Source of the DNA: Carnobacterium iners
Lineage (GTDB): Bacteria; Bacillota; Bacilli; Lactobacillales; Carnobacteriaceae
Assembly (NCBI RefSeq): GCF_900177385.1
Contig: NZ_FXBJ01000002.1
Coordinates: 124,001 to 188,000 of the forward strand
Length of the DNA stretch: 64,000 bases
Direction: 5' to 3'
Shown one piece after another: positions 6,972 through 27,196 of this stretch. A program made the position numbers and the translations under genes. Position 1 is the stretch's first letter. Every line of letters begins with the position of its first letter. Below the pieces are notes generated by a model, which ran no database searches, was not told where the DNA came from, and saw nothing but the letters and a program-made list of their open reading frames with translations.

Positions 6972-7054
6972 TTTGATACTCTTATTATACCAGAAAAAGC
7001 ATGCAAAAAACAGATAAAATCGTTGTCAAATCAACGATTTTATCTGTTTTTAAG

Positions 7055-7411: not shown

Positions 7412-7412
7412 A

Positions 7413-7616: not shown

Positions 7617-7696
7617 TCCTCCAACTTGTTTGCTATAGAACCAAGTATAGAGTGAAATTAAAGTCTGTTAAAGATATCCGTTCATTTTGCGCTTAC

Positions 7697-7704
7697 TATG
7701 CTTA
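7697..7704. repeat. IS66 target-site duplication, right copy
   Basis: TATGCTTA, the direct repeat partner of 5297-5304. Confidence 0.9.
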
Positions 7705-7763
7705 CCGCTAATCGGTCGCACTCAGGACTTTCACCTGTTAGAGTTTGCCCATGCTGGGCGAAC

Positions 7764-9621: not shown

Positions 9622-9650
9622 AAAAAGACACTTCTATAATTAGAAGTGTC
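9622..9650 (-). terminator. Terminator of the permease cluster and intron target
   Basis: Minus strand: GACACTTCTA, short loop, TAGAAGTGTC, then TTTTT. It ends the catabolic cluster transcribed from the right. The T-run is directly abutted by group II intron copy 2. Confidence 0.88.
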
Positions 9651-9730
9651 TCAGATATTAGTGAAAGTGTCCTATTTTCATTTATAAATATTCTTTTTAT
9701 TTCTATATTTAATCCTGTTCATTCTTATTA

Positions 9731-11293: not shown

Positions 11294-11959
11294 TTAGTTT
11301 ATAGCCTCTAAAAGGTTTTTTGATTCCGTTGTCCAACCAAATATACCGCCTTGTTGGTTGATCATTCGGATGGAATCTTCGTGATCTTTTTTATCGAATG
11401 CTGCACAGCAATCTTCTAACATTAAGCACTCATAACCTCTATCGTTTGCTTCACGTATTGTTGATTGGACACACACGTGAGTTGTTACACCTGCAAGAAG
11501 TAAACTTTTAATATTTTTATTTTTTAAAATCGTTTCTAAATCTGTTTGATAGAAAGCGCCTTTACCTGGCTTATCAAGAATAACTTCGCCTTCTATTGGT
11601 TGCAATTCGTCAACGATATCATGACCATACTCGCCACGGACTAGAATCCGTCCCATTGGACCTTCTTCGCCAATTCCTCCGCCACGTTTGGCTTTGCTTG
11701 CTGGTAAATCTGTTAAATCTGGTCGGTGACCTTCTCTTGTATGAATCACAAGCATCCCTTTTTCTCTCGCTTTATCTAAAACTCGCTTAACGTTAGGAAT
11801 GATTGAGCTCGTTGTTGAAACATCGTTTCCTAATTGTTCGCCAAAACCGCCTGGATATAGAAAATCACGTTGCATATCAATAATAATAAGTGCTGTTGTT
11901 TCCAAATCTAATTCAAATCCATAAGGTTTAGCTTGTATTGTAAATTCTTTAGTCATCAT
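11294..11959 (-). CDS. Isochorismatase-fold cysteine amidohydrolase A
   Basis: A 221-residue member of the family that includes biuret hydrolase, ureidoacrylate amidohydrolase (RutB) and N-carbamoylsarcosine amidase. The Asp-Lys-Cys triad is visible: Asp in LIIDMQRDFLYPGGFG, Lys in ILDKPGKGAFYQTDL and Cys in GVTTHVCVQSTIREANDRGY. The last motif resembles the biuret/ureidoacrylate branch. It would cleave a terminal amide or urea to release ammonia. Its start (ATGATG, GGAGGA upstream) overlaps the end of the permease gene at 11949 by 11 bases, so the two are translationally coupled and probably share a substrate or product. The exact substrate cannot be read from sequence. Confidence 0.85.
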   Translation of the reverse strand: MMTKEFTIQAKPYGFELDLETTALIIIDMQRDFLYPGGFGEQLGNDVSTTSSIIPNVKRVLDKAREKGMLVIHTREGHRPDLTDLPASKAKRGGGIGEEGPMGRILVRGEYGHDIVDELQPIEGEVILDKPGKGAFYQTDLETILKNKNIKSLLLAGVTTHVCVQSTIREANDRGYECLMLEDCCAAFDKKDHEDSIRMINQQGGIFGWTTESKNLLEAIN

Positions 11960-13472
11960 TTATTCCTCCATTATTTTTTTTATAAAACATTACCAAAATG
12001 ATAGCAACTATCAAGTAACTAATAGCTGTTTCTAAACCAACGCCAATTCCAACAGTTTCATAATGAATTAATCCAAAGAAAGAGAAAAATGATCCAAGGA
12101 TTGCTGTTAGAGCGGCATAATGAAACTTTTGATCGATTATGAAAGTCAAGATGCTGGCCCAAAGCATACTAATAATAATAGCCCCGGAACTTAAAGCAAC
12201 TAACCCTCCATAAGGCAGACCAGCTTTTTCTATTGCTTCATAACTAACAGTCAATGCATCGGTACCTGCTGCAGTTAGTGCATTTCCAATAATATTTTTC
12301 CCCCAGTCTGCTAACCAAGGAATTAAGGCCAAGATAACTGCTGGAGCATACTTAAGATCCACTTCTTGAAAGGCTTGTGCTCCTATCATTAAACCAATAT
12401 AAATTAAGATGGGCAACACTGCTGCAAGTGGAATAATACTTAATAATAATGAAATAAGTCCCAGCCAAGTAATCGCTAAGACTGCTACTCCGGTAGCAAG
12501 CGTATAGCCAATTCTTGCTCCTGCTTCTTTCCAGCCAGGATGGCCGATAAAAACGGCTGTAGGAAAAGGACTTCCAAACAAACTGGCTAAAATACTTGTA
12601 GATCCATCTGCAATCATAGTTGTTGTCGTACTGTATGAATCGCCTGCTACTTCAGCACTTTCTACATTATCAATTGTCTCAAGCATATTATAAATTCCAA
12701 GTGGAATAGCTGAAACAATAAAAGGAAGTGCACTAGAAAACCCGCTTACAATTCGATTGATTGAAAAAGATGGAATAGAGAATTCGATACTATTGGCAGA
12801 AGCAATTAATGCATCCAAGTCCATAACGCCAGTAGCCCATCCAATAACTGTACCTATAATAATAGCAACTAAACCAACAGGAAGATGAAAAGGAAACTTA
12901 ACTTTTCCAAACCATCCTAATAAAATAATGATTAATGAAATCAAACCGATATAGGGTAAATCAAATGTTTGCATTGCAGGTGCCATAGCAATAAAAGTAA
13001 TAGAAGCACCAGCTAAAGATCCCAGCATTGCTGAGCGAGGCAGTAATTTTCTAATCTTTGCTCCAAAAATAGAGCCAGATAATTCAATAATTCCTTCTAC
13101 AAATCCCCAAGCTAAACTAGCATACCAAGCCAAGTAAGGATCGCCTGTTGCACGATAGACCGGTCCCATAATCAAAAAGATGATTAAAAACATATGTGGG
13201 ACACTAGTTCCTGAAGGCAAAGCCGTTACGGTATTTCTTTTTTCTTTTTTTACCAATTGAAAAGCTAAAAAGCTATAGATTACACTACTTGCAAAAATAG
13301 ATAGACCGACTGCTGGTAAAATTGAGCCAAAAGTTATTGTAGCAGGTATTCCCGTACTGATTAGCAATCCTGCCATTACGAGTAGATTCGTCAGATTGTT
13401 AGTAAATAATCCAAAAAATCCATCGATATCTGTTTTTTGCCAAAACTTAACCTGACCATTGAATGACTCCAT
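11949..13472 (-). CDS. NCS2-family nucleobase permease
   Basis: A 507-residue membrane protein with about 12-14 hydrophobic segments and NCS2 features: DGFFGLFTNNLTNLLVMAGL at the start, TALPSGTSVPHMFL, LPRSAMLGSLAGASITF and FPTAVFIGHPGWKEAGARIG. It is homologous along its full length to the frameshifted gene at 9731-11274, probably by local duplication. It presumably imports a purine- or pyrimidine-like ring with protons or sodium. It is coupled by overlap to the amidohydrolase at 11294. It lies in the catabolic run, but a 204-base spacer with a long hairpin separates it from the upstream gene. Confidence 0.88.
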   Translation of the reverse strand: MESFNGQVKFWQKTDIDGFFGLFTNNLTNLLVMAGLLISTGIPATITFGSILPAVGLSIFASSVIYSFLAFQLVKKEKRNTVTALPSGTSVPHMFLIIFLIMGPVYRATGDPYLAWYASLAWGFVEGIIELSGSIFGAKIRKLLPRSAMLGSLAGASITFIAMAPAMQTFDLPYIGLISLIIILLGWFGKVKFPFHLPVGLVAIIIGTVIGWATGVMDLDALIASANSIEFSIPSFSINRIVSGFSSALPFIVSAIPLGIYNMLETIDNVESAEVAGDSYSTTTTMIADGSTSILASLFGSPFPTAVFIGHPGWKEAGARIGYTLATGVAVLAITWLGLISLLLSIIPLAAVLPILIYIGLMIGAQAFQEVDLKYAPAVILALIPWLADWGKNIIGNALTAAGTDALTVSYEAIEKAGLPYGGLVALSSGAIIISMLWASILTFIIDQKFHYAALTAILGSFFSFFGLIHYETVGIGVGLETAISYLIVAIILVMFYKKNNGGINDD

Positions 13473-13561
13473 AACTCTTACTCCTTCGAATTAGCTTGCA
13501 CTATAATTCATTTTTTAATTAAGTGTTTATTCAGTTTCACTTTAATTAGCTTTATTTTTAT

Positions 13562-13623
13562 ATTCGAATGCTCCATAGGGACCTAAAGAGATCAATTTCC
13601 AGAGTCCTATTGAGCATTCGAAT
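13562..13623. other. Long intergenic hairpin
   Basis: ATTCGAATGCTC (13562-13573) pairs perfectly with GAGCATTCGAAT (13612-13623). ATAGGGAC and GTCCTAT extend the stem inward with one bulge. No T-run follows on either strand, so it is not a standard terminator. It could be an mRNA processing or stability element between two permease/hydrolase modules. Function unknown. Confidence 0.6.
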
Positions 13624-13676
13624 CACAACGGTAATTCATTCCTCATTCATTTTTATTTCTCAACTTTTATCTTAAC

Positions 13677-14498
13677 TTAAAGAGCTTCTTTGAAAGCTTT
13701 AATAAATTTTTCTGAGTCAGAAACATTACCAAAGACGCCACCTTGCATCTTGATTGATTTTATCGCTGATTCGCAGTTTCCTTGATCTGTTGCGCCCGTA
13801 GCATCTTTCAACAGAATACAGCCATAGCCATAATCATTAGCTTCTCTCATAATTGTGTGCACACATACATCTGCAGTAATTCCTGTTAGAACTAAATGAG
13901 TAATTCCTAAGTTTTTTAAAATTAAATGAATATTACTGCTTGCGAAGGCACCTTTTCCTGCCTTATCAATAATGATTTCTCCTTCAAGAGGGTACAACTC
14001 ATCGATAATATCCCAGTTTTTTTCTCCACGGATAAGCAAACGTCCTAGGCCTTTTTCTGGCCTATCGCCGATTCCAATTCCTTTTCCAATAATCTTAGAT
14101 CTCAACACTTTTAAATAAGGAGCATCAGATAAGTCTGGAGAATGTCCTTCTCTTGTATGGATAATTTGAATATCTGATCCTCTTATTGCATCTAGCACAT
14201 TTTTGATTGGTTTAATTGCACTAGCCGTTAAAGATAGATCATATCCCATCACATCAACGTATCCGTTCTCACCACAAAAATCTGTTTGCATATCAACAGA
14301 TATAAAAGCCGTTCTGCCAGAATCAAGTTCCACATAAGCTGTCTCACCAAAGTCCGGTGCATCTTCAACTTCTAATGTAATGATTTTCCCTTTTATCTCA
14401 CCGTATTGCCACGTAGGATAAGGAATAATTTTTTCTTCTTGGAATAGTTTATAATCTTTTTCGAGTTGCATTTCTACTTTACTCATTTTTTTATCCAT
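13677..14498 (-). CDS. Isochorismatase-fold cysteine amidohydrolase B
   Basis: A second biuret-hydrolase/RutB-like enzyme, 273 residues from the ATG at 14498, which has an AAGGAGG site; an upstream in-frame ATG at 14528 lacks one. Triad residues: Asp in FISVDMQTDFCGENGY, Lys in IIIDKAGKGAFASSN and Cys in GITADVCVHTIMREANDYGY. It is about 50 residues longer than paralogue A at the N-terminus (CWQYGEIKGK-like beta region, PTWQYGEIKG). It lies directly downstream of the permease at 14531, repeating the permease-hydrolase pairing. It probably hydrolyses an open-chain amide or ureide made by the ring-opening enzyme of this cluster (inference). Confidence 0.85.
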   Translation of the reverse strand: MDKKMSKVEMQLEKDYKLFQEEKIIPYPTWQYGEIKGKIITLEVEDAPDFGETAYVELDSGRTAFISVDMQTDFCGENGYVDVMGYDLSLTASAIKPIKNVLDAIRGSDIQIIHTREGHSPDLSDAPYLKVLRSKIIGKGIGIGDRPEKGLGRLLIRGEKNWDIIDELYPLEGEIIIDKAGKGAFASSNIHLILKNLGITHLVLTGITADVCVHTIMREANDYGYGCILLKDATGATDQGNCESAIKSIKMQGGVFGNVSDSEKFIKAFKEAL

Positions 14499-14530
14499 CT
14501 TTTTTTCCTCCTTCACCATTTTAGTCAAAA

Positions 14531-15847
14531 CTAGTTAACTAGTTTTTTTCTTTCTCTAAAAATAATTTGTTCCAGTAAAATTACAAGGATAATAACTAGA
14601 ATAACAGGGTTACTCATAATAGTACCGACAATTCGTGGGAAACCTTTAAAGAATTCAGTTGATAACCTAGAAGTTCCAAGAGCAAAGAAGATTGAAAATC
14701 CAACAATAAAAATCTCTCTCGTTTCAAATTTTACTGATTTCTTAGAAGAATCTATGCCTATTCCAATTAATGTAGAAGCAACTCCTAACAGAACAGCTCC
14801 TGCAACTGGCTCAGGTATAGCTGCCATTAAACCAGCAATTTTACCAAAAAAACTTAAAAATACGACGATAACACTTGAAATAATAATAAAATAGCGTGAG
14901 GCTACTTTCGTTAGTAAAAGAAAGCCTAAGTTTTCACCATACGGCGCATATCCTGGTACACCCAAGATACCTGCTAAGGAACCTTCTATTAAACCAAAAA
15001 CAGTAAATAATTTCTTTTTTCTCTTAGGAGAAACCGTTAAATCTAATAAACCTACATAACCTTGGACATTTCCATAGACATTAATGGCTGAAAAAAAGTG
15101 TACGATTATCATAGTGATAATTAAATCAAGTGGTGGCATAGTCATTCCAAATGGAAATAACTTTGGAATAAGAATAGTTGGCATCGTTTCGACTAGCTCC
15201 CAATTGAATGTACCTTGAACCATAAAAATAATATAGCCCAAGACAATAACAATTAGTACTGGGATAGTGGCAAGGATTCCTTTACCTTTTATAGAAAGAA
15301 AACCACAAACTAGGGCTAAAAAAATCCCTACATAATAAGCCCAACCTACTCCATAGACCGCTAACAGCTCCATTCCTGAAAAACTAGTAGCCAATCCTAC
15401 CATTAAAATCATCGAACCTTGAGTAAGAGGTGTCCACACTTTTCCAATCGTATTCAAAATACCGGTCACTCCAAGTAGAGCTACAACTATCCCTGCTATA
15501 ATGAAAGCATTGAAAGACGCTAATGCATAGGCCTCTCCACCTACTTCATAAGCTGCTACTATAGCTAAAGAGGGGATAATGTTAGGTCCGGAAATCATAG
15601 AGAGTTTGTGTCCAGCTATGGTCTGAATTAATGTAGATAAACCAATCATTAATACAATTCTTCCCATATACTCCGCCAGAACGGCATCATCTAAATTCAG
15701 TCCTTTTCCTACAATAGCATAACCCCATATCACTGGATAAACCATAATCATGATCCACTGAAGTGAATAAAGAATACCATCTTTCCAGTTCTTTGGTTTG
15801 TCTTCTGGCCCATAAATAAGATGCAACGACTCAGGTTGTTTTTTCAT
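14531..15847 (-). CDS. NCS2-type xanthine/uracil permease
   Basis: A 438-residue polytopic protein from the ATG at 15847, chosen because AGAAGGGG lies just upstream; an in-frame ATG at 15898 has no site. NCS2 signatures include GHKLSMISGPNIIPSLA, LLGVTGILNTIGKVWTPL, GVPGYAPYGENLGFL and AAIPEPVAGAVLLG. It belongs to a different branch from the two permeases at 9731-13472 and is closer to the PbuX/UraA type. It sits between the carbamate kinase gene and amidohydrolase B, so it likely imports the cluster's substrate. Confidence 0.87.
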   Translation of the reverse strand: MKKQPESLHLIYGPEDKPKNWKDGILYSLQWIMIMVYPVIWGYAIVGKGLNLDDAVLAEYMGRIVLMIGLSTLIQTIAGHKLSMISGPNIIPSLAIVAAYEVGGEAYALASFNAFIIAGIVVALLGVTGILNTIGKVWTPLTQGSMILMVGLATSFSGMELLAVYGVGWAYYVGIFLALVCGFLSIKGKGILATIPVLIVIVLGYIIFMVQGTFNWELVETMPTILIPKLFPFGMTMPPLDLIITMIIVHFFSAINVYGNVQGYVGLLDLTVSPKRKKKLFTVFGLIEGSLAGILGVPGYAPYGENLGFLLLTKVASRYFIIISSVIVVFLSFFGKIAGLMAAIPEPVAGAVLLGVASTLIGIGIDSSKKSVKFETREIFIVGFSIFFALGTSRLSTEFFKGFPRIVGTIMSNPVILVIILVILLEQIIFRERKKLVN

Positions 15848-15902
15848 AATTTCCCCTTCTTTAGTTGTCATATTAGTCTTGGCGTTTATAAATAACACTA
15901 TT

Positions 15903-16847
15903 TTAATCTTCTATTTTTGAGTAGATAATCGTACCATCTAGTCCTAGAATAGCCTCTTTTGTTTTATCCATTGAGGTAATAATTGCTTTTCTCCCCCGTT
16001 TAGATTTAACAAAATAAATAGCCGCTTGGATTTTCGGTGACATGCTACCCTCTAAAAATTGGCCTTCATTCAGCCAGTTTTCTGCTTCATTAATGGTCAT
16101 TTCATCTAAATTTTCTTGATTTGGTTTATTAAAGTTTATCGATACTTTATCTACTGCTGTTAGAATAAATAGATAATCAGCATCCATCTCTTGCGCCAAG
16201 TATTGACTTGCTAGGTCTTTATCAATGACACCCTCCACACTTACTAGTCGATCTCCAGATTCAAAAACAGGGATACCTCCCCCGCCTACTGCAATAACAA
16301 CCATTCCAGCTTTTGCTAATACATTGATACTCTCTTGTTCTACGATTTTAATAGGAATTGGAGAAGGGACTACCTTGCGGTACCCTCTTCCCGAATCCTC
16401 AATATATTTATCCCCCGTTTGTTTCATCCAATTTTTTGCTTCTTTTTTTGTATAGAATAAACCTATTGGCTTAGTTGGAAATTCAAATTCTTTATCTTGT
16501 TTATCGATTAATGTTTGCGTAACAATAACGACAACGGACTTATCTATTTTTCTCTTTTTAAACTCTTCTCTCAGAGCATTTTGTAAGTGGTTACCAATGT
16601 AGCCTTGACTCATTGCTCCACAATCTGAAAGAGACATTAAAGGAATCTTCTTTTTTTGTTTTGCTCCTAGGGAAAAGGCTAATTGCATCATACCTACTTG
16701 CGGAGCATTGCCATGAGAGACAACAACATCGTGTCCTTGCTCAACTAAATCAACAATAGAACGACTTGCTTTTTTTGCTAGTTGCCGTTGTTCGATGGGC
16801 GTATCTCCAAAAATATGACCTCCTAGTGCAACGACAATTCTACTCAT
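15903..16847 (-). CDS. Carbamate kinase, catabolic
   Basis: Transfers phosphate from carbamoyl phosphate to ADP, giving ATP plus carbamate, which falls apart to ammonia and CO2. The 314-residue product has normal length and family motifs: VVSHGNAPQVGMM, VVIAVGGGGIPVF, VIDKDLASQYLAQEMDADY and GSMSPKIQAA. The N-terminal motif reads ALGGHIFG rather than the usual ALGGNAL, an unusual Asn-to-His change. The start overlaps the stop of the DUF1116 gene (ATGA). No arcA or arcB is nearby. The partner carbamoyltransferase is probably the FdrA/YlbE/YlbF-type set encoded just upstream, as with ybcF in the E. coli allantoin region. Confidence 0.93.
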   Translation of the reverse strand: MSRIVVALGGHIFGDTPIEQRQLAKKASRSIVDLVEQGHDVVVSHGNAPQVGMMQLAFSLGAKQKKKIPLMSLSDCGAMSQGYIGNHLQNALREEFKKRKIDKSVVVIVTQTLIDKQDKEFEFPTKPIGLFYTKKEAKNWMKQTGDKYIEDSGRGYRKVVPSPIPIKIVEQESINVLAKAGMVVIAVGGGGIPVFESGDRLVSVEGVIDKDLASQYLAQEMDADYLFILTAVDKVSINFNKPNQENLDEMTINEAENWLNEGQFLEGSMSPKIQAAIYFVKSKRGRKAIITSMDKTKEAILGLDGTIIYSKIED

Positions 16848-18277
16848 GCGGTTGTTTCCGCTTTATACTTTTCAACAAAGGCCATTAAAGCATCTTCAAA
16901 ACATTCTTTTGGTGGATGTACAATACCTGCGCCAATTTGGCCAATTCCAGCTACTTTATGAGCCATACCTGTATTGATGATTGGTAAGACTCCTGTGTCG
17001 ATGACTTTTCGTAAGTCAATTCCTAATGCTGAACCTCTAAAGTTCAATGGAGGAAGAGAGTAGTTGCTATTTTCTCCAACAGTGATTGTATACATTTGCT
17101 CACTATTTCGAATAGCATCATCTACGTCACCACCAACGAATTGGACGATTGCTGGTGAAGCTCCCATTGCAAATCCACCGATTCCCATTGTTTCTGTGAT
17201 ACAGCTATCCCCTAAATCTGGTGCTGCATCTTCTGCGCTAAAACCAGGGAAGAAGAGACCTTCAACAAAATTTGCTGGAGCTGTGAACCACTCGTCTTTT
17301 CCTAAACCACTAATTCTAATACCAAACTCGACACCATTTCTTGCCATCGTTGTTACGACAGTAGAATGAGCTACACCATGACTTGCATCTAAAGCTGCTT
17401 TAGATGCTGGCATGGACAAGTTTAAGAAATAATGTTCATTGCCTTTTATAAAGTTTAAAACTTCTTTTATTTCATTTTTTTCTAAATCTGTTTGTAAGAA
17501 ATAGCCGGAAATTTCACGATAAAATAAACTAGTAGATGCTTTATTTCTGTTGTGACACTCATCTCCCATATGCAAAGCTTGAGCTGTAATTGATTTAATA
17601 TCGATACCTTCTTCAGTAAGGCTCAATGCTTTTTTAAGTGCTGGCGCATAAACTTCTTGCAACCATTTTAAACGTTCAATAACTTCTGATGAGTAAGCAC
17701 CAAAACGAAGAACTTTTCCAAGACCTTCATTTACTGTACAATAAGTTCTATTTCCGTGAACAACGTTTTCAATAACATGTACCGGCATAGAAGGTGAAAC
17801 AATTCCCGCCATTGGTCCAACAGTAGAATGTTCATTACAAGGGGCAAATTCTATCTCGCCAGCTTCGATAAGCTTAACAGCTTCCTCTTCATTGTGTGCT
17901 AATTCTTCAAAAATCAAAGCGCCAATGATTGCTCCTTTTACCGGACCAGCCATTCTTTCCCAAGTTATCGGAGGGCCTGAATGCAAGATTAATCTAGCAT
18001 GCATTCCTGGTATAACGTCTAAAGCTTGTCCAATATCAATTAAATAAGGATGGGCGTCCTTCATGCGCTTTATTACTTCCTTGTTTGCTTCTTCAATCTT
18101 ATCGTTATCCGCAATCAAGTCTAACGCATTTAAAAGTTTGATATTTCCTCCAGCAGGTGGCTGCCAATTGACTTGTACAGATTCTGTTTGTTGGATTTCC
18201 ATCTCTTTGTTAAATTTAACTGTGCCAATATTGATTACTTTCAAATCTTGATTAAATAAATTATTCATTTTACTCAA
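16844..18277 (-). CDS. DUF1116 protein (YlbE/AllG-like carbamoyltransferase subunit)
   Basis: A 477-residue YlbE-family protein. In E. coli ylbE belongs with fdrA and ylbF to the gene set linked to oxamate carbamoyltransferase, the phosphate-dependent splitting of oxalurate (established family knowledge, stated from memory). Family-like segments are HSGPPITWERMAGPVKGAI, APCNEHSTVGPMAGIVSPSM and IGGFAMGASPAIVQFVGG. The start is taken as TTG at 18277 because GGGAGA lies 5-6 bases upstream; the ATG at 18268 would be too far away. It overlaps the carbamate kinase start by four bases and follows the FdrA-like gene after 16 bases. Confidence 0.88.
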   Translation of the reverse strand: MSKMNNLFNQDLKVINIGTVKFNKEMEIQQTESVQVNWQPPAGGNIKLLNALDLIADNDKIEEANKEVIKRMKDAHPYLIDIGQALDVIPGMHARLILHSGPPITWERMAGPVKGAIIGALIFEELAHNEEEAVKLIEAGEIEFAPCNEHSTVGPMAGIVSPSMPVHVIENVVHGNRTYCTVNEGLGKVLRFGAYSSEVIERLKWLQEVYAPALKKALSLTEEGIDIKSITAQALHMGDECHNRNKASTSLFYREISGYFLQTDLEKNEIKEVLNFIKGNEHYFLNLSMPASKAALDASHGVAHSTVVTTMARNGVEFGIRISGLGKDEWFTAPANFVEGLFFPGFSAEDAAPDLGDSCITETMGIGGFAMGASPAIVQFVGGDVDDAIRNSEQMYTITVGENSNYSLPPLNFRGSALGIDLRKVIDTGVLPIINTGMAHKVAGIGQIGAGIVHPPKECFEDALMAFVEKYKAETTA

Positions 18278-18293
18278 ACTAATCTCCCTACTT

Positions 18294-19835
18294 TCAAATT
18301 AATTTTATTGCTAGTTCGGCAGCTTGTTCGTTGCTATCTGCAATGCATATATTTAACTCTTCTAATTTTCTAGCTTGTTCTGAATAATCTTGTTTGTCAG
18401 TACGTGTTCCACAAATATAAGCAATAATTGGTAAGTGACGTCCATTTTCTTTTGCAATCTTTTGAGCTTCTTCTAATGCTTCAAACGTTACCCCTACAGG
18501 ATCTTCGTGAGAACCGTATCCTAATTCAAAATCAAGTAGTAAAACGGCTGTTGCTGGATCTTTTGCTTCTTCGATAATACGCTCATTTCTCAAAGAAGGT
18601 TCAATCATTGGATGCGGTTTACCTTGTGTAAATTCGTCATCACCTAAATCGACTAGTGTGTTTCCTTGACTAGCGTGTACATCTACAAGTTTTTCATTTG
18701 CTCTTTTTGCAACATTACTTTTAATTTCATCTACATGAGGTCTAATAACCGTTAAGGCTTCTGAAGTAAGTGTGCCTCCACAAAATAGGCCACGAATGTA
18801 TTTTTGAGAAGCCGTTAGTTCTTCTTTTTGATTCTTAATCCATTCATTTTGTTTGTCGCTTATTTCATTAGACAAGTCTTTATCAGAACTACCTAGTGCT
18901 TTTACAGCAAGTACAGCGCCTTGTCTTAGTGTTCCTGCGAATGTTGCACCAACTTTTTCTACTTCTTTTGCGTCTCCATCTAAGAAACAAACAACGACAG
19001 GTTTTTTCATTGCTTTAATTTGTTCCATAATTTTATCTTGCACGCTTGCTGCAGGTGGCTTAGAAATTAGAACGATTACTTTTGTATTGCCATCGTTTTC
19101 AAGCGCTTTCATACCTTCTAGCATCATAATTCCACCGATAGGCTCTTGTAAGTCTCTTCCACCAACACCAATAGCTTGTGAAATACCTTCTCCTAATCGG
19201 TCAATTTGGACACTTACTTCTTGTAACCCAGTTCCTGAAGCTCCTACTAAACCGATATTTCCCTGTCTAACTTTATTTGCAAAACACAATCCAACATTAT
19301 TAATAATGGCTGTTCCACAGTCGGGTCCCATTACGAAAAGACCTTTTTCTTTGCCTAATTCTTTTAATTCTTTTTCTTCTTCTATTGTTACATTATCACT
19401 GAATATCATGACATTCAGGTCTTTATTTAACGCTTTACGTGCTTCTCGAGCAGCGTAGTTTCCTGGTACAGAAATGATAGCTAGGTTAGCCTCTGGCAAT
19501 AAGTTTAATGCTTCTTCTGTATTTTCTGTTGACGTTTCACCGTTCTTTTTCTTACCGCCTTTTTTCGCATTGAGCTCTTCTTCTATTTTGCCAAACACGT
19601 CTTCCATATTTTCTTCAGTGTCTGCTTCGATAGCAAGAATTAGGTCATTTTCTGACGCACTACTTGCTTCCTCTGTTAATAAGCCAATATTTTCTAACAA
19701 TTCTTTATTCATTTGAGTTGCCATTGAGACGACTGCCTGTTTTACACCATCTAATTTACTGATACTTGCTGATAAAGACATTAATGTAACCGAATCATGA
19801 TAAGCATTTTTTTCTATCATTACTTTTGAAACCAT
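18294..19835 (-). CDS. fdrA: FdrA-family protein (AllF-like carbamoyltransferase subunit)
   Basis: A 513-residue protein of the acyl-CoA-synthetase-like FdrA family, with a Rossmann-type CoA-binding/ligase region around residues 115-330 (VMGPDCGTAIINNVGLCFAN, NIGLVGASGTGLQEVSVQID, AIGVGGRDLQEPIGGI). A C-terminal ligase-like domain follows (DFELGYGSHEDPVGVTFEAL). A charged linker (about 85-100, KKGGKKKNGE) separates the N-terminal domain. E. coli FdrA, about 555 residues, works with YlbE and YlbF in the last step of anaerobic allantoin use. GGAGG precedes the ATG. It lies four bases after the DUF2877 gene, forming a tight DUF2877-fdrA-DUF1116-carbamate kinase unit. Confidence 0.9.
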   Translation of the reverse strand: MVSKVMIEKNAYHDSVTLMSLSASISKLDGVKQAVVSMATQMNKELLENIGLLTEEASSASENDLILAIEADTEENMEDVFGKIEEELNAKKGGKKKNGETSTENTEEALNLLPEANLAIISVPGNYAAREARKALNKDLNVMIFSDNVTIEEEKELKELGKEKGLFVMGPDCGTAIINNVGLCFANKVRQGNIGLVGASGTGLQEVSVQIDRLGEGISQAIGVGGRDLQEPIGGIMMLEGMKALENDGNTKVIVLISKPPAASVQDKIMEQIKAMKKPVVVCFLDGDAKEVEKVGATFAGTLRQGAVLAVKALGSSDKDLSNEISDKQNEWIKNQKEELTASQKYIRGLFCGGTLTSEALTVIRPHVDEIKSNVAKRANEKLVDVHASQGNTLVDLGDDEFTQGKPHPMIEPSLRNERIIEEAKDPATAVLLLDFELGYGSHEDPVGVTFEALEEAQKIAKENGRHLPIIAYICGTRTDKQDYSEQARKLEELNICIADSNEQAAELAIKLI

Positions 19836-19839
19836 TTTT

Positions 19840-20775
19840 TTACCTCCTATATGAATTATTCATTTGGTCGTAAGCGAAAATTACTCCTACAAGCATATCT
19901 GTCCCAGATGTAGCGCCAATCTTTAAAAATGGCTGGAGGTACCTAGTTATGTCCTCTTCTTGATAATGTCTAAGCAAATCATTAAGTGCTTGATTTACAT
20001 AACCATTGACACCATTTTCAAGCATAAATGCACTAATCGATGTTGATCTTTTTTTTACATGTTCTATCCAGTTATTTCCTTCAAAGCTCTCAATTAAAGG
20101 GCTCTCAAAAAGATGCCAAACAGCTAAGCAACCTAGTAAGAAATCATCACCTGATGGTGTCAAACCTACTCCTAAACCGACTAATTTGTAGCTTTGCTTT
20201 ACTACCGCGTTAAAGTCTTTAGCTGCTAGTTCTTCTGACATTTTCCTTATTGCTTGTAGGAAAAATGCAACGTAACTATTTTTAACCGAGCTATTGGCTA
20301 ATTCCTTGTTAGAATAAATCTCCCAAGCTGAAACTAACCCACTATCGCTCCCCTGCTCTTTGATAAATTTGTAGATAGTTTTTGAAAAACTATCCGATGA
20401 AAGTCGTTCGCTCAGATTTTTTTTACTTATTTTCACAAGACTATACGTTGCTTTAGTATAATCCCATTCTACTTGCTTAATTTTTATCGTATTTTTTTGT
20501 GATAACCTCACTGGATCACCAGGAGCTACCTTACTTTTCATAGCATTGAACAGCTGCTTATCTGCTGTTTTCATCATCCCTGGTGAAGAAATAACTTCTT
20601 CTAAAGCTAATGTAAGTAGACTACTTTGATCAGTAGCTAGTATATTGATCACTTTATTAAAAACACTATGAACCGTTCCAACTAAAGAATTCACTTCCTT
20701 ATTTTCCAGCCCATCTACTACTTGTTGATCAATAATTGTTATCGTTCCTATCTCTTGTTCAGACACTTTTTTCAC
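19840..20775 (-). CDS. DUF2877 protein (YlbF/AllH-like carbamoyltransferase subunit)
   Basis: A 311-residue DUF2877 protein; the signature GLGVGLTPSGDDFLLGCLAV is near residue 205. It corresponds to E. coli YlbF, the third partner of FdrA and YlbE. The likely start is GTG at 20775 (reading MKKVSEQEIG), with only a weak purine-rich upstream site. It is first in the unit DUF2877-fdrA-DUF1116-carbamate kinase, which has 4- and 16-base gaps and one overlap. Role inferred from family and context: part of an enzyme that moves a carbamoyl group from an acyl-urea to phosphate. Confidence 0.85.
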   Translation of the reverse strand: MKKVSEQEIGTITIIDQQVVDGLENKEVNSLVGTVHSVFNKVINILATDQSSLLTLALEEVISSPGMMKTADKQLFNAMKSKVAPGDPVRLSQKNTIKIKQVEWDYTKATYSLVKISKKNLSERLSSDSFSKTIYKFIKEQGSDSGLVSAWEIYSNKELANSSVKNSYVAFFLQAIRKMSEELAAKDFNAVVKQSYKLVGLGVGLTPSGDDFLLGCLAVWHLFESPLIESFEGNNWIEHVKKRSTSISAFMLENGVNGYVNQALNDLLRHYQEEDITRYLQPFLKIGATSGTDMLVGVIFAYDQMNNSYRR

Positions 20776-20924
20776 CTTTGCTTTTTAGAAAATTTTCTTT
20801 TTCATTAATAAATATGTCCTTCTTTATTTTAGTCGGAACAACTAATTGCATACAAGAAGAGCTTACTCATCTAGTTTTGGCCGTTTAATTACTGTTTTGT
20901 CACATTAACTATTCTTATAAGTCA

Positions 20925-22034
20925 TTATGCTTTAGCAATAACTGCTACTGGGCCACCACCATCTGGACCTTGGTGCTCTGCTCCGCCTGAAACGTAGACC
21001 ATTGGATCTTTAGTCAAAGTAGAAATAACAGCATTCACAACTGCACGAGCATGTCTTGTGTGGTTTATATCTGAATCTTCTAACATAACCGTACGTCTAT
21101 CACGACATTTCCCTGTAGAAGAAGCTTCTGCTTTAGCTAATACGTTTACGATTTTATCTAATTCTTTGTCCGAAGGATACTCTTCAAATACTAATCCAGC
21201 TGCCCTCATTGCCTCTTTAACAGCCTCAATATCGATAGCATCTTTCATTACGGCGGAACCACTTAATAAATCACTAGCTGAGTTTGTAGAGTTTCCAATA
21301 AGAATAATTTCATCGTTTAATAATTCTACACCAGCAGATGTTGAAGCTACTCCTGAATACAGACTGTAGTCATGACAAATCATTTCGTCATTTAATTGAT
21401 CTTCTGTAACTTCTCCTAAAGCAAGTGCTACTCCTAATGCTGAAGCTCCTCTAGAGTAGCCCATTGATTTATAGGTATCATTAATCGCAACTTCTTTGCC
21501 ACGTTTTTCTGCTTCTTCCATTCTTTCTGCTGTCAATAATGGACATTTGATTTGAACAAAATGAACATCTTCGGGGCTATCGATATGAGCATCTTTCATA
21601 GCTTGTGTAACACATCTAGCTACTTCTTTTACTTGCTCCATTCTTCCAATTTCCTCAGGTTTGAAGTCTCTCGTGAAAGCAATTCCTGCTGCTAATCTCT
21701 TTTCGCCTGTTGAGTTCGTTTCTCCTTCAACTTCTTTTTTAACAAAAACAGTTAAATGAGGAGACATAACGCCTTCTGTTCCTCCAGACATGATAAGAGC
21801 AACTTTTTTTTGAACTTCTTCTGGCGAACTATTCAATACACCTGCTAAATAGTAAGAAATCGCCATGTTTGAGAATCCGCGTGTGTAATCATTTACACAA
21901 CCGTTCCCTTCAGTTTTGCCTAAAATAGCTATGATTTCTTCTGCTTTGATTGTTTTATCGTCAACCAGTTTCTTTAATCCTGAAACGTCATCTGGTGAGT
22001 CTGTTGCTATACGAAATACTTCTACTTTTTGCAT
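20925..22034 (-). CDS. Ring-opening amidohydrolase (cyanurate hydrolase/barbiturase family)
   Basis: A 369-residue AtzD/TrzD-type enzyme built of three similar domains, each with a Ser-Lys active pair. Visible family motifs are [13 protein letters not shown] (about residue 87), [19 protein letters not shown] (about 190), [13 protein letters not shown] (about 240) and [20 protein letters not shown] at the C-terminus. Members hydrolyse cyanuric acid to carboxybiuret or barbiturate to ureidomalonate; sequence alone does not tell which. AGGAGG precedes the ATG. It lies upstream of the carbamoyltransferase unit and downstream of a permease. It is the gene that most clearly points to catabolism of a ring imide rather than allantoin. 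Confidence 0.9.
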
Positions 22035-22175
22035 AATTTAATTCCTCCTAATTAGTTTAAGATATCTTTTTTTAGTTTACTTTAGCTTAAATAATCCATC
22101 AATTTGATTGGTTCATTTAATCGTTCAAATTAAATTGCTTTCATTCGAAGCCTCCTTTCAATTGGGTTAATTTTT

Positions 22176-23429
22176 TTAGATGACTATAAAGGCTACTATC
22201 ATAATGATTAATAGCATACCAACAACAAACTTAGTATTGCTCTTAACGATATCTAAAACCGTCATGTCAAACCCTTCTGCTAATGCTGCTACGTTAATTT
22301 GAACTGGGCTAATTTGCGTACCTAATCCAGTTGCTATTGCAACAAATCCCATTGCTTCAGATGACAACCCAAGGGTACTTAATGTTGGCAATATTAAGGC
22401 TAGAACACCTGCCGCAAATGCTCCTGATGGGATAGCAATTAAAAAGGCCAGAATCATTGTAACCGGCAACAAGATTATTTCAGGAACTGTTTTAGCAATT
22501 GATGCAATCTGTTCGAAGGTTCCTAATTCCGCAATCATATTGATAAAGGCTAAGAATATTCCTACTGCAAACAGAGTGGTTAAAATAAATTTAGAGCCAT
22601 CAACTAACGCTTCACTCATTTCATTCAAATTCAACGGTGTGCATATAACCGTAAGTATGGCCGTTATAATAACGATGGTCGCTGGGGTAAACACCTTGGT
22701 ACCGATTAAACCATTTAGATAACTACCTACTACAACCATTGCAAGTAAAGCAATGAAAGGAAAAGCTCGGCCTAACAAACTGATGTTGCTTTGCTCTTTT
22801 TCACCTTCTACTTCTTCTTCTTTCTTCATAACTAAGCTGCCTCTTTTGTGAACACCATAAATGGCCAAAGCTACAGCTACGAGGTAAAATCCAATCGTGT
22901 AAGGCAACATTGCTGCAGCGTGATCCACTACGTCTCTTCCTGAACTCGTTGCAACCAGAACTGTCTCCGTTGAAGAAGGAGCAGTAGTAAAACCAACAGC
23001 CGATATAATTGCCATGGCTGCTATTACTTCTGGAATAGCTCCTACGGCTACAGCCATTAAGGGAGCTGTTACCATTGTATTACCCGCTGCTGTTCCAGCT
23101 GCGTAAGTCGCAAATCCTTGAATCAATACAATAATTCCGGCTAAAATAGCTATTCTTCCTCTTAAAACTCTTTTAGCTAAATCAACTAGTGCTTTTATAC
23201 TTCCTGCTCTAGATACCATTACAGCTGTTGCTGCATAGATGATAGGAACAGTAATTCCAAGCATATTAGAAATACCACCTATAAATTGTTCGGTGATACT
23301 ATCAAATCCAAAACCACCAATAATAATGGCTAATATTCCACCTGCAAATCCAGCCACCAGCATGTGTTGGTTACTAAATAATAAAATCAATACGACAACT
23401 ACGGGTATTAAATTAATAAATAATTCCAT
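22176..23429 (-). CDS. Ion-transporter-superfamily permease, substrate unknown
   Basis: A 417-residue polytopic membrane protein with about 11 hydrophobic segments. The start at 23429 has a perfect AAGGAGG site; an in-frame start at 23459 does not. The two repeated helical-hairpin-like regions (TYAAGTAAGNTMVTAPLMAV and PSGAFAAGVLALILPTLS) and the fold resemble GntP/CitMHS/DcuC-like carboxylate transporters. I cannot name a closer family. It lies between the PucR regulator and the ring-opening enzyme. It may import an anionic substrate or export or exchange the carboxylate product (inference). Confidence 0.72.
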   Translation of the reverse strand: MELFINLIPVVVVLILLFSNQHMLVAGFAGGILAIIIGGFGFDSITEQFIGGISNMLGITVPIIYAATAVMVSRAGSIKALVDLAKRVLRGRIAILAGIIVLIQGFATYAAGTAAGNTMVTAPLMAVAVGAIPEVIAAMAIISAVGFTTAPSSTETVLVATSSGRDVVDHAAAMLPYTIGFYLVAVALAIYGVHKRGSLVMKKEEEVEGEKEQSNISLLGRAFPFIALLAMVVVGSYLNGLIGTKVFTPATIVIITAILTVICTPLNLNEMSEALVDGSKFILTTLFAVGIFLAFINMIAELGTFEQIASIAKTVPEIILLPVTMILAFLIAIPSGAFAAGVLALILPTLSTLGLSSEAMGFVAIATGLGTQISPVQINVAALAEGFDMTVLDIVKSNTKFVVGMLLIIMIVAFIVI

Positions 23430-23881
23430 GTTTTTTCCTCCTTGTGTTTTAAGCTTCAAAAAAATATAACCATTTATTAGATACTATAAAATCAGTTCCT
23501 ACTAGTTTGATAATGGCTCTCTCTTATTTAGTTTATTGAAACACTATAATGGCTTTTCTATTTTTAAAATGATACTACATATTACATTTAGTGAAATAAT
23601 TATCAATCTACTCATAACTCTTTCTTTTATCTATCTTCTAGCTCAATAAGATCGCCCTGTGATACTGTAAATCTTAAGGATATAACCTTTTTCGTTTTTA
23701 TAAGAAAAAAATTCTACAAATCTATTTTTATTCTTTTTTAATCTATTTATCCTTCCTGTGGTAATTCAAACATTGACATTATCCTTCATAGTTCATTTAG
23801 AAAAGATTTTTTTGTATCGCTTTCTCCTATGCATTTATTGTAACAAAGATTGGAAGGGTTTTCATCGTAGTAAAACCCTAA
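23430..23881. other. Long leader/intergenic region with no gene seen
   Basis: About 450 bases between the permease and the PucR terminator. AT-rich, no open frame of note. It probably holds the promoter and PucR control sites for the permease and ring-opening operon, but I could not fix a motif. Confidence 0.45.
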
Positions 23882-23916
23882 AAAAAAACACTCTGATTGT
23901 CATATAGTGACAATCA
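23882..23916 (-). terminator. Terminator after pucR-like gene
   Basis: TGATTGTCA (23894-23902) and TGACAATCA (23908-23916) form a stem. On the minus strand it is followed within a few bases by a run of nine T (23882-23890). Confidence 0.75.
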
Positions 23917-23967
23917 AAATGCTAATCGTTCTATTTAGTTATAATTTAACTTCTTCATTCTTGAAGT

Positions 23968-25587
23968 CTATTCTCTTCTATCTATTTCTGTCCACATATT
24001 GATGTGGTGAGCAAGGACAATTTCGGCTATTTCTAACCCGTCATCTATATTTATTCCTAGTTCTTTCAATCGGTTTATTCGATAGCGTAGCGTATTATAA
24101 TGAATGAACAACTTTTTAGCTGCTTCTTTATGATTAAATTGTGTTTCTATTAATGCCATAAGAGTTTTTAATAAGTCCATGTTCACCTTTTGATCGTATG
24201 CTAAAATATCTCCTAGTTTACGTTCAACATATTTATCTAAAACTTTTGTATCTTGCACTTCTTTAATGACGCTAAATAACTCGTTATCGTCGTAATGGCT
24301 TACAAAACAAGCCTGCTTTAATTTACGACCGATAAACCAACTATCTTTGGCTTCTTTATAAGTTGCTGGGAATGAAAGAGAATTTAATACGGGATTAGAT
24401 ATTCCTATCCCTATAGGATAATCGTCTCCTAATTTTCTGATCAGCGAGTTTCCAATTGCTTTCATTTTTTCTTTACTGTTGTTAATAAAAGCAACGTTGA
24501 CAAATAAAACCAAAGAACCGTCTATATAAGTTACTTTTATTTTTTTATTCGTTGTAATTAATTCTCTTTTTAATATATTCTCAATTATTTGACTGTGGAG
24601 TATTTTTTCATAGTCTCGCATTTTAGTTAGTTCATTTTTATTAAATAATTTTAATACAAAAATAACTTCTGGAAATTCCATTTCCCAACCATATATTTTT
24701 GCTTTTTCAATAGTAACTAATTGACTATAATTCGTTCCTTGCAAAATATCTCTGATAAAAGAATCTTGAAAGTTTCTTTCTTTTTCTGCTACAGCATGAT
24801 TTTTATAAAAAACGGAAGCTAATAATAGAGAAGCCTCTTCAACCGCTACTAGTAGATTTCGATTTTTTTTATCTCCATCCAAAAGAATCAAATAAGCGAA
24901 TTTATTAGCTTGCGCTTCTATTGAATAGTTTATAAAATCTTCACTAGTATAAACTTTGTCTTCGTGTTTGACCACTAGTGAATCTATTCCTACTTTTTTA
25001 TCAAGTAAATGAATTGTTAATTTTGTTTTATCAATACTTCTTGATTGAGATATTAAGTTTGTATCAACATCTAATAAAATCACTGGATGATCTACTAAGT
25101 CTGAAAAGCTGTCAATCATAGCATTGACATTTTCTCCTTTTAGAAACATGTTCATCAGTTGATTGTGGACTTCTCTTTGAAATTGTAAAGCTGATATGTG
25201 TTGATCTAAAGAAAATTTAATTATCTCCGAAGCTAAATCTGATAAGTTCTCATCACTGTGAATTTCAATAATAGGAAAATTTAACTCATTCGCTTGTTTT
25301 AACATACTTTCTGGGATTGTTTCAATGTACCTGCCGGTTTTTATACAAATTCCAGCTGCTGATGCTGCCGAACTTTTAGGTATAATACTCTTCATTGCTT
25401 CAGCATTATTAATGATTGGATAAAGCGTTGTAATAATCAAACTATTTTCTTCTAAAAATTCTCCAATATCCGGTACTTCCATCAAGGTTGCTTTCTTTAC
25501 GATATTTATTAATCCGTTTTCACCTGCAACTACTTTGGCTCCTGAAAAGCCTTTTAACTTCAAGATATCTTTTACTATTGTAGCCAT
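23968..25587 (-). CDS. PucR-family transcriptional regulator
   Basis: A 539-residue regulator with an N-terminal PucR (purine-catabolism sensor) domain, residues about 1-125 (VKDILKLKGFSGAKVVAGEN; MEVPDIGEFLEENSLIITTL). A GGDEF-like CdaR middle region follows, and a C-terminal helix-turn-helix near 490-530 (HKEAAKKLFIHYNTLRYRIN). The family controls purine, amino-acid and ureide catabolic genes in response to nitrogen compounds. AAGGAGA precedes the ATG. It sits between the cytosine-deaminase-like gene and the permease/ring-opening genes, all on the same strand, and is the natural candidate regulator of the cluster. Confidence 0.92.
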   Translation of the reverse strand: MATIVKDILKLKGFSGAKVVAGENGLINIVKKATLMEVPDIGEFLEENSLIITTLYPIINNAEAMKSIIPKSSAASAAGICIKTGRYIETIPESMLKQANELNFPIIEIHSDENLSDLASEIIKFSLDQHISALQFQREVHNQLMNMFLKGENVNAMIDSFSDLVDHPVILLDVDTNLISQSRSIDKTKLTIHLLDKKVGIDSLVVKHEDKVYTSEDFINYSIEAQANKFAYLILLDGDKKNRNLLVAVEEASLLLASVFYKNHAVAEKERNFQDSFIRDILQGTNYSQLVTIEKAKIYGWEMEFPEVIFVLKLFNKNELTKMRDYEKILHSQIIENILKRELITTNKKIKVTYIDGSLVLFVNVAFINNSKEKMKAIGNSLIRKLGDDYPIGIGISNPVLNSLSFPATYKEAKDSWFIGRKLKQACFVSHYDDNELFSVIKEVQDTKVLDKYVERKLGDILAYDQKVNMDLLKTLMALIETQFNHKEAAKKLFIHYNTLRYRINRLKELGINIDDGLEIAEIVLAHHINMWTEIDRRE

Positions 25588-25987
25588 GGTAATCTCCTTT
25601 GCTTATACTACCCATAGATTAATTGTTTAGTTATTATCTCAACTATAACATTAACTTATTTTACATAACAATTACTAAGCTCACCGAAAATCTGACTCTA
25701 TCTAAATAAGATAAGTTCAGCTGGAATAAAAATAATTTTTCTTCTATTTATTATTATAGTTTAGCCTTTTTCTTTTAATTTTATTGCTTCTTGCTATTTC
25801 AATAGGAATTGAGATATATAATATTTAAATCCCAATTATTTCACTAAAAATACTCAAAATGATTGTCGATTTAGTTTTTCCAAGTACCTTTTAGAATAAA
25901 AATATAGATATATGAAAAAGACTAAATTTTTTTATTGATTAGAAAAAAATACAGTCAACAGTTGTTTTACCTGCCTTAGTCGTTCGC
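25588..25987. other. Intergenic region with no gene seen
   Basis: A 400-base very AT-rich spacer between the amidohydrolase and pucR-like genes. It probably carries the pucR promoter. No convincing operator, terminator or RNA was identified. Confidence 0.45.
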
Positions 25988-27196
25988 TCATTTATTTCGA
26001 ATAGTAAAGTTCTCATTTAAAAAATCTCCATAAATAGATACTTGTTTAACAATAGCACTTGCTTTAGTGTAGGAATCTAAAACAATAAAATTAGCTTTTT
26101 CTCCTATTTTAATAGCGTAATCAAACTTTAAATTTTCCCCTGGGATTACCGTTGTCATATCAAATAATGTTGCTAATTCTTTTTCTCCACCCATATGACA
26201 GGCATGTGCTGCTATTAAAGCTTCTTCCAGCATATTGCCATTTCCAAATGGATTAAAAGGATCTTGAATATTATCTGAACCTATCATCACTGGTATGTCT
26301 CTACCATGAAGATAGCGAACAGGCGTTACACCTCTAGGAGCATTTGTTTCACTTCCTCTTCCTTGTAAATAGAGATTGGTTGAAGGAAGAGAAATAACGT
26401 TAATTTTTGCTTCTGCTATTCTACTAGCAATCTTTTCCAACTCTCCTACTTTTTGAGCGGCTAAGCTACATAAATGACAAGCTGTTACGCGTCCTTCATA
26501 CTTATTTGCTATCGTCGTTTCTGCTAAATCTAAAATAGTTAACGAATTTGGATCATCTGTTTCATCGATATGCATATCGATGTCTACATCGTACTTCAAA
26601 GCTAAAGCTGTTAGGTCTTTTATATGCTTTGCGGGATTTTTCTCTATTGCTGGAATTCCTCCTACAAGATCTGCTCCTCTTTTTAAGGCATTTTCCATGA
26701 AAAGAAGATTTTCTGGGTTTTCATTAATTCCTTCTTGAGGAAAGGCAACAATCTGGATTTCAAGGCTATCTTTGTACTCTTCTTTCAATTCCAGCAATGC
26801 ATCAATCGAACTTAATTTAATATCGCTATCCACATCGATGTGAGTCCTGATAAATCGTGTACCGTTTTTTAATGATAATTGTATAACCTTTTCCGCTCTT
26901 TCTTTTACCTCTTCTTTTGTCATTTTCTTTTTATAAGATTGCATAATTTTGATTGCTTCAGTTAATGTTCCACTTTTGTTTATAACTGCTTCGTTAATTA
27001 AGGCTTTATCTAAATGCATGTGACTATCTACGAAACCTGGAATAGTCAACCTCAGATTTAAATCAATGACTGAATAATCTCCATCCAATGAACTAGATTG
27101 ATCTGTTATTTTTTCAACTCTCTTATTTTTAATATAAATATTCTTCACTTTATCTTCAAATGGAAAATAGGCATTTTGTAGGATATATTGTTTCAT
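25988..27196 (-). CDS. Cytosine-deaminase-like amidohydrolase
   Basis: A 402-residue metal-dependent amidohydrolase of the CodA/AtzC branch. Predicted metal ligands are visible: His59 and His61 in DSHMHLDKA, His in DIDMHIDETDD, His in VTACHLCSLA and Asp in MIGSDNIQDPFNPFGNGNML. The HIDETDD and DPFNPFGNGNML signatures match cytosine deaminase, which deaminates aminopyrimidines. AtzC-type relatives act on amino-triazines such as ammelide. In this cluster it probably removes an exocyclic amine to make the ring imide that the enzyme at 20925 opens (inference). GAGGAGAG precedes the ATG at 27196. It is the most upstream gene of the catabolic run. Confidence 0.88.
   Translation of the reverse strand: MKQYILQNAYFPFEDKVKNIYIKNKRVEKITDQSSSLDGDYSVIDLNLRLTIPGFVDSHMHLDKALINEAVINKSGTLTEAIKIMQSYKKKMTKEEVKERAEKVIQLSLKNGTRFIRTHIDVDSDIKLSSIDALLELKEEYKDSLEIQIVAFPQEGINENPENLLFMENALKRGADLVGGIPAIEKNPAKHIKDLTALALKYDVDIDMHIDETDDPNSLTILDLAETTIANKYEGRVTACHLCSLAAQKVGELEKIASRIAEAKINVISLPSTNLYLQGRGSETNAPRGVTPVRYLHGRDIPVMIGSDNIQDPFNPFGNGNMLEEALIAAHACHMGGEKELATLFDMTTVIPGENLKFDYAIKIGEKANFIVLDSYTKASAIVKQVSIYGDFLNENFTIRNK

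Follow-up and report, generated by a model that had tools for sequence, protein, structure and literature searches.

A predicted cyanuric acid operon in Carnobacterium iners and the likely coupling of ring opening to carbamoyl phosphate and ATP

Can the opening of a nitrogen heterocycle be made to yield ATP? This question is raised by a minus-strand gene cluster in a 64,000-nucleotide stretch of Carnobacterium iners DNA (contig NZ_FXBJ01000002.1, positions 124,001 to 188,000; hereafter the window), in which a gene for an AtzD-family ring-opening enzyme lies with genes for AllF, AllG and AllH, the subunits of a transcarbamylase, and for a carbamate kinase. Cyanuric acid, the ring that we consider here, is manufactured on a large scale to stabilise chlorine and is also formed from triazine herbicides. 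Fermentative ATP from carbamoyl phosphate and carbamate kinase is familiar from the arginine deiminase pathway, from which the route proposed for the window differs in that its carbamoyl donor would be a ring-opened ureide and in that the transcarbamylase families are unrelated.

With moderate confidence we read the cluster as a fermentative, ATP-yielding cyanuric acid operon in which AllFGH would phosphorolyse an open-chain ureide. In this pathway, a CodA/AtzC-like enzyme may supply cyanurate, perhaps by deaminating ammelide or a similar base, and the AtzD-family enzyme would open cyanurate to 1-carboxybiuret, which would lose CO2 to give biuret, and a TrtA-like enzyme may add carboxybiuret from triuret. 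A BiuH-type enzyme would then convert biuret to allophanate and NH3, and AllF-AllG-AllH would most likely split allophanate with phosphate into carbamoyl phosphate and carbamate, whereas in relatives without BiuH it would act on biuret (giving urea) or on carboxybiuret (giving allophanate). Carbamate kinase would finally make ATP, one per ring. Homology strongly supports the predicted ring opening, and comparative genomics gives good support to its proposed coupling to carbamoyl phosphate and ATP, while the AllFGH and kinase steps are proposed from family function and gene context.

Cyanurate pathways described so far end in allophanate hydrolysis, with no energy conserved (available part of PMC7948467, together with general knowledge of the field). 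A phosphorolytic ending, if true, would give one ATP per ring, would account for the completion of cyanurate breakdown in bacteria that have no recognisable AtzF or urease, and would add to the single substrate known for this transcarbamylase family; phosphorolysis of allophanate or biuret would itself be a new enzyme activity.

The ring opened by the AtzD-family enzyme

Family assignments were made by Pfam, NCBIfam and PDB comparison. The ring-opening enzyme scored far above the cutoff (360) of the cyanuric acid hydrolase equivalog NF052395 (Table 1), and its closest PDB structure was the Moorella cyanuric acid hydrolase 6bum, matched over the whole length at 549 bits, compared with 308 bits for the barbiturase 5hwe. 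The equivalents of K40, S79, K156, R188, S226, E230, K285 and S333 are all conserved, so that the enzyme shares with this Moorella AtzD/TrzD enzyme all three Ser-Lys dyads and an Arg at the 188 position, where barbiturase has Gln (PMC4051656). The same source describes barbituric acid as an inhibitor, and not a substrate, of cyanuric acid hydrolases, and PMC6557486 also supports a cyanuric-type assignment. On the equivalog score, the nearest structure, the conserved residues with Arg188 and the published inhibition by barbiturate, the enzyme is most likely of the cyanuric acid hydrolase type and cyanurate is its expected ring. The preliminary description of the cluster had placed the enzyme in an AtzD/barbiturase family; by score and residues it is of the AtzD type, and it lacks the Gln of barbiturase.

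The AtzD of Moorella mulderi is 71% identical to that of the window, and its locus shares the arrangement of AtzD, AllFGH and carbamate kinase, which sets both apart from AtzD systems with AtzEGHF or with BiuH and AtzF. A complete cyanuric signature was found in 14 of 18 distinct AtzD-family loci, 12 of which are linked to AllF and/or AllG, linkage being defined as a distance within 10 kb. At three further linked loci (L034-L036), where the AtzD-family gene lies beside AllF and two tandem AllGs, two of the three dyads are lost and Lys stands at the 188 position, so these enzymes probably open another ring; PMC4051656 also describes a Bacillus subgroup with Lys at this position. Since L034, the one of the three that was scanned, passes the cyanuric cutoff at 372 bits, NF052395 alone is no proof of substrate. 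The enzyme of the unlinked locus L037 (genome G422) has Gly instead of Glu230, and its gene adjoins molybdenum hydroxylase genes.

Linkage of AtzD to AllFGH in genomes and on plasmids

A scan for close relatives, run over a species genome collection with the window AtzD, gave eight AtzD loci, at seven of which AllF and AllG both lay no more than 10 kb away. In a phylum set of 398 genomes, an AtzD-family match was present in 13, AllG in 60 and both in 11, such that AllG occurred in 11 of 13 AtzD-positive genomes versus 49 of the 385 others (Fisher p = 2.4e-8, not corrected for kinship). In seven of these genomes, a randomly chosen place would fall within 10 kb of AllG with a frequency of about 0.6-2.4%; the AtzD-AllG linkage is not chance.

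Nine of 11 fetched full-length AtzD loci (the window's excluded) carried AllF and/or AllG; one locus, L032, has AllF and AllH only, with its AllG near the start of another contig. Counting M. mulderi, fetched twice (L006, L028), once and leaving out an AtzD fragment in G444, we found 15 of the 18 distinct loci other than the window to be linked. The unlinked ones were L009, L033 and L037, the last of which has an AllG-like gene, divergent at 27% identity and outside the 10-kb rule at about 12 kb from AtzD, together with CodA-like and BiuH-like genes and no AllF label (L114). Genes were labelled by best BLAST hits (1e-8; 1e-4 in one comparison) to window and E. coli K-12 proteins, and gene clusters were named from one representative each. 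By these labels, PucR was present in 12 of the 15 linked loci and a homologue of the transporter gene next to the window AtzD in 11, while 13 had no AllB/AllC-like neighbours, such neighbours being found at L034 and L035. A conserved linkage without allantoinase, which the preliminary description had proposed to seek across genomes, recurs at these 13 loci, and its coupling of ring opening to FdrA, DUF1116, DUF2877 and carbamate kinase gains support from the same comparisons.

The AtzDs of the window, Enterococcus, Paenibacillus, a Klebsiella plasmid and the Moorella group formed one clade (8 rows, support 99/97). The AllGs partnering this clade are not one clade (approximately unbiased (AU) test, p = 0.0002; the tested group was taken from the AtzD tree and chosen after the AllG tree had been seen). 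On an AllG tree of 59 of 64 rows (the near copies L007, L028 and L070, the short-contig L102 and the 265-aa L026 were left out), the 16 AllGs labelled as having AtzD without BiuH required 6 changes, at least 4 of them forced by starred branches. This repeated pairing across AllG lineages argues for functional coupling.

The linkage, shared by bacteria that are not related to one another, is also carried by plasmids. An AtzD-family match was found in 132 of 72,556 plasmid records, and an 8.9-kb seven-gene cassette (DcuC-like-AtzD-NCS2-AllH-AllF-AllG-AllK; for example at L070 and L112) was matched by 50 plasmid records, all above 95% identity and 47 with at least 80% of the cassette. Among these 47, one is without the first gene and two have annotations suggesting broken frames, so the cassettes need not all be functional. 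The hosts were Citrobacter (18), Klebsiella (11), Enterobacter (8), Leclercia (5), Raoultella (4) and single others, with sources including showers, a drain and clinical samples, and 36 of the 50 plasmids were predicted to be conjugative; the proposed ATP yield, if real, suggests a reason for the cassette's presence on many conjugative plasmids. A collection of complete E. coli genomes gave no megablast match to the cassette, though one E. coli plasmid among the plasmid records carries it. At L112, IS26 flanks the cassette on both sides, and the same record also holds predicted genes for arsenic and silver resistance. A paper on biosolids plasmids names cyanuric acid amidohydrolase in its reference list only.

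The ureide split by AllFGH

In E. coli, AllFGH splits oxalurate into carbamoyl phosphate and oxamate (PMC11326118). The window resembles this system in having all three subunits, with matching families, and the kinase in one operon, and differs in that no allantoin genes are adjacent and in that the tree separates its AllG from that of E. coli. AllF resembles the alpha subunit of succinyl-CoA synthetase, and the His at the phosphorylated position was present in none of 19 AllF proteins aligned with sucD; in this one alignment, its absence is consistent with carbamoyl phosphate being released to a separate kinase. On chemical reasoning, allophanate, biuret and carboxybiuret share the carbamoyl-NH-carbonyl unit of oxalurate, so the same bond could be split by AllFGH.

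According to PMC7948467, from which we also took the residue roles in BiuH and TrtA, triuret and cyanurate both yield carboxybiuret, whose half-life before it loses CO2 to become biuret is about 20 min, and BiuH produces allophanate. The two isochorismatase-fold amidases of the window are nearest to BiuH, TrtA and RutB, both score below the BiuH equivalog cutoff (NF050097, 370), and both keep the catalytic Asp, Lys and Cys together with substrate residues. In the BiuH-type amidase, every examined BiuH position is kept (Y, Y, D and V in addition to the catalytic D, K and C), and the difference from BiuH lies in the N-terminal extension and the score. The TrtA-like amidase has F35, N41 and I205 as in triuret hydrolase, with His replacing Glu160, a variant common to the window and the AllFGH loci L090 and L097. 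At these two loci, the His160-type gene lies between two perm2-like permeases and beside AllFG(H)K, without AtzD, which suggests a triuret-type operon with the same AllFGH ending.

A hydrolytic ending was sought in the genomes themselves. The window genome (G000) gave no allophanate hydrolase (TIGR02713), allantoinase or AllD match over cutoff and no urease match, in agreement with the earlier claim that no allantoin pathway is present; because no allophanate hydrolase was recognised there, AllFGH is the proposed ending of the pathway. Of 16 linked genomes, counting that of the window, 13 had neither allophanate hydrolase over cutoff nor a clear urease, and two had a clear urease (Huaxiibacter and K. 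michiganensis); three genomes (G260, G306 and Enterococcus) gave partial urease-domain matches of 23-26 bits, formally above the Pfam cutoff of 23, which were not scored as urease. Among the three unlinked AtzD genomes, allophanate hydrolase exceeded its cutoff in two, and the Betaproteobacterium and G422 had a clear urease. In G316, BiuH over cutoff and AtzF accompany AtzD, and AllG is absent.

Several results weigh against AllFGH as the proposed ending. The E. coli complex is known only for oxalurate and oxamate, with kinetic constants for carbamoyl phosphate plus oxamate in the available part of PMC11326118. Only two of the 15 linked loci (L005, L032) have a BiuH-type gene, so BiuH was rejected as an obligate partner and, with 13 loci lacking it, a single AllFGH substrate does not explain all loci; a carbamate kinase-labelled gene was near only eight of the 15. 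In the window genome, two sub-cutoff amidases (180 and 77 bits versus 511) could hide a divergent allophanate hydrolase. That genome also holds, below cutoff, an allantoinase-family frame of 229 bits (cutoff 358), an AllD-like frame that is intact and scores 150 bits (cutoff 496), and a broken AllD-like gene outside the window, while allantoinase-family frames in the scanned genomes reached 312 bits and AllD-like frames in G309 and G463 about 235-252 bits; since absence was called by cutoffs, a supply of oxalurate is unlikely but still conceivable. The allophanate hydrolase gene atzF was found on 25 of the 50 cassette plasmids, about 5 kb from the cassette in pHS08204 and much further away in others, and allophanate hydrolase exceeded its cutoff in two of the 16 linked genomes (K. 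michiganensis and P. tepidiphilus). AllFGH is therefore not a simple AtzF substitute, and the idea that it always replaces AtzF is weakened.

The plasmid and BiuH results bear on a competing proposal, which we consider possible though rather unlikely, in which AllFGH would act on biuret or carboxybiuret everywhere, the window included, with urea or allophanate as the end product and the BiuH-type enzyme as a side branch. The loci without a BiuH-type gene mean that a BiuH-free route must exist, Moorella-type AllGs group with the AllGs of the TrtA-like loci L090 and L097, TrtA being a producer of carboxybiuret (PMC7948467), and plasmid-borne atzF would consume allophanate. This atzF fits AllFGH yielding allophanate from carboxybiuret on the plasmids, or its independent acquisition. 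In the window, E. aquimarinus and G260, however, a complete BiuH-type active site in or beside the operon would divert the substrate, and none of these three genomes has AtzF over cutoff or a clear urease to use the products.

It is less probable still, and on balance improbable, that AllFGH remains oxalurate-specific and that the operon merely stacks hydrolysis of cyanurate and biuret on a separate oxalurate phosphorolysis. The available part of PMC12625717 describes biuH beside allFGHK in nitrifiers and reads the neighbours as two separate routes, with AllFGH in oxalurate degradation; these ammonia oxidisers share with the window the adjoining genes and the absence of upstream purine genes, and differ from it in having no atzD in their genomes. 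Oxalurate, or oxamate in the reverse direction, is also the sole family substrate that we found reported in the sources available, and some linked genomes hold the sub-cutoff AllD-like and allantoinase-family frames noted above. Against this, allantoinase and AllD over cutoff were each found in none of 10 linked genomes, the pairing with AtzD involves several AllG lineages, and without AllFGH the 13 genomes would show no enzyme to finish biuret or allophanate. In addition, another AllFGHK operon is kept in the window genome, and its AllG falls with that of E. coli in the tree (59% identity). This second operon (L025, G000:C2 1713000-1732999) includes CodA-like and transporter genes and adjoins an arginine deiminase cluster. 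Elsewhere in the genome (L026, G000:C2 1395000-1414999) there is an isolated AllG fragment of 265 aa with 68% identity to E. coli YahG. In the literature searched, with most subscription papers outside its coverage, no paper that describes a coupling of AtzD with AllFGH was found, and searches for cyanuric acid with carbamate kinase, or with carbamoyl phosphate and biuret, found only PMC12625717.

The substrate named in the preliminary description, barbiturate, which would be opened to ureidomalonate, split by AllFGH into malonamate and carbamoyl phosphate and finished by an amidase freeing malonate, is very improbable for the window even though barbiturases belong to the same protein family and the chemistry fits other AllFGH operons, and was rejected because the diagnostic residue is Arg with all three dyads intact, the nearest structure is a cyanuric acid hydrolase, barbituric acid inhibits enzymes of that kind (PMC4051656), the amidases are of biuret/triuret type and no malonate-handling family occurs in the cluster.

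Sister operons and layout of the cluster

Barbiturate chemistry fits clostridial sister operons better than the window. We fetched 40 non-AtzD AllG places with flanks in the phylum, 39 of which had an AllG label. A PF04199 cyclase was present at 23 of the 40, together with molybdenum-hydroxylase subunits at 18 of these 23, and a methylmalonyl-CoA-decarboxylase-like subunit, OAD-beta or class III CoA-transferase was found at 8 of 23 loci with the cyclase versus 2 of 17 without it; representatives of these families score below the NCBIfam cutoffs of the named enzymes. The clostridial AllFGHK operons L074, L082, L087, L088, L094, L095 and related ones carry the cyclase with varying combinations of molybdenum hydroxylase, CN_hydrolase, CoA-transferase and Na+-pump-type decarboxylase. 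From this gene content, they are candidates for an oxidative uracil/thymine fermentation in which the pyrimidine would be oxidised to barbiturate, the ring opened, the product phosphorolysed and deamidated, and malonate or methylmalonate decarboxylated. Judged by titles and abstract starts, none of the papers that our searches on a barbiturate, uracil or malonate route listed deals with an anaerobic one.

We tentatively suggest, as a wider view about which we are doubtful, that AllFGHK could be a portable ureide phosphorylase that conserves energy and has been joined to at least three ring systems, namely allantoin (E. coli), cyanurate/triuret (the window, Moorella and the plasmids) and uracil or thymine via barbiturate. 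In the third system, a molybdenum hydroxylase would oxidise uracil or thymine to barbiturate, a PF04199 cyclase-family enzyme would open the ring, and phosphorolysis and deamidation would lead to malonyl- or methylmalonyl-CoA with a Na+-pump-type decarboxylase.

In the window itself, 13 minus-strand genes, the last one split, occupy the stretch between 27196 and 9731 (Table 1). The genes named in the preliminary description were all found there as open frames with matching families; its boundaries of 11294-27196 hold for those genes, and the cluster continues to 9731. Two units are apparent, the first consisting of the CodA-like gene and PucR and the second of permease-AtzD-AllH-AllF-AllG-AllK-NCS2-amidase-permease-amidase-permease, a long run in which neighbouring genes overlap or are separated by about 200 bases at most; the carbamate kinase frame overlaps AllG by 4 bases, and its TIGR00746 score is just under cutoff. 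Of the NCS2 permeases described earlier, one fits the Pfam NCS2 model, while perm2 and the transporter beside AtzD matched no Pfam model at E 0.001. The latter transporter is a candidate for ureide or cyanurate uptake; its AlphaFold2 (AF2) model (predicted local distance difference test (pLDDT) 67) gave MleN (9a59) and then INDY as best Foldseek matches, which would place it only in a broad superfamily. Perm2 homologues also flank the TrtA-like genes at L090 and L097. The number of terminator-like sites in the window (11) was not in excess of that in shuffles (10.1), and a promoter scan gave no more sites than shuffles did.

Table 1. Features of the cluster in the window, in descending order of position.
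Feature	Position	Strand	Evidence
CodA/AtzC-like amidohydrolase, Amidohydro_3, 402 aa	25988-27196	-	PDB cytosine deaminases 4r7w/1k6w, then AtzC 2qt3; below NCBIfam cutoffs
PucR-type regulator, 539 aa	23968-25587	-	PF07905 + PF13556
Terminator-like hairpin after PucR, 16 pairs + T tail	23887-23923	-	weak
Membrane transporter, ion-transporter type (MleN/DASS/TRAP-like)	22176-23459	-	DcuC_1 42 bits (NCBIfam cutoff 100)
Cyanuric acid hydrolase (predicted), AtzD family, Amido_AtzD_TrzD, 369 aa	20925-22034	-	Pfam 513 bits; NF052395 548 bits
AllH subunit (old DUF2877), 311 aa	19840-20775	-	PF11392 80.5 bits
AllF subunit (FdrA), 513 aa	18294-19835	-	PRK06091 516 bits (cutoff 433); 3dmy
AllG subunit (old DUF1116), 477 aa	16844-18277	-	PF06545 323 bits; 3clq
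Carbamate kinase, AllK/ArcC type	15903-16847	-	PRK12352 317 bits (cutoff 266); TIGR00746 334 (cutoff 358)
NCS2 nucleobase-type permease, 455 aa	14531-15898	-	PF00860 (Xan_ur_permease) 158 bits
Biuret-hydrolase-type isochorismatase-fold amidase, N-terminal extension ~60 aa	13677-14528	-	NF050097 289 bits (cutoff 370)
perm2, multi-pass permease, 507 aa	11949-13472	-	no Pfam match
TrtA-like amidase, third type	11294-11959	-	PDB 6xix TrtA 258 bits, BiuH 6azo 250; NF050097 290 (cutoff 370)
perm2 paralogue split across two frames (broken gene or sequencing slip)	9731-11274	-	
Terminator-like hairpin just beyond last permease; proposed operon end	9625-9652	-	weak

Among 98 related genomes searched, AtzD was found in one, the window's own, which makes acquisition of the operon probable. 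A reverse transcriptase frame and IS66-type transposase genes lie next to the operon end (5379-8926), an arrangement that is consistent with acquisition.

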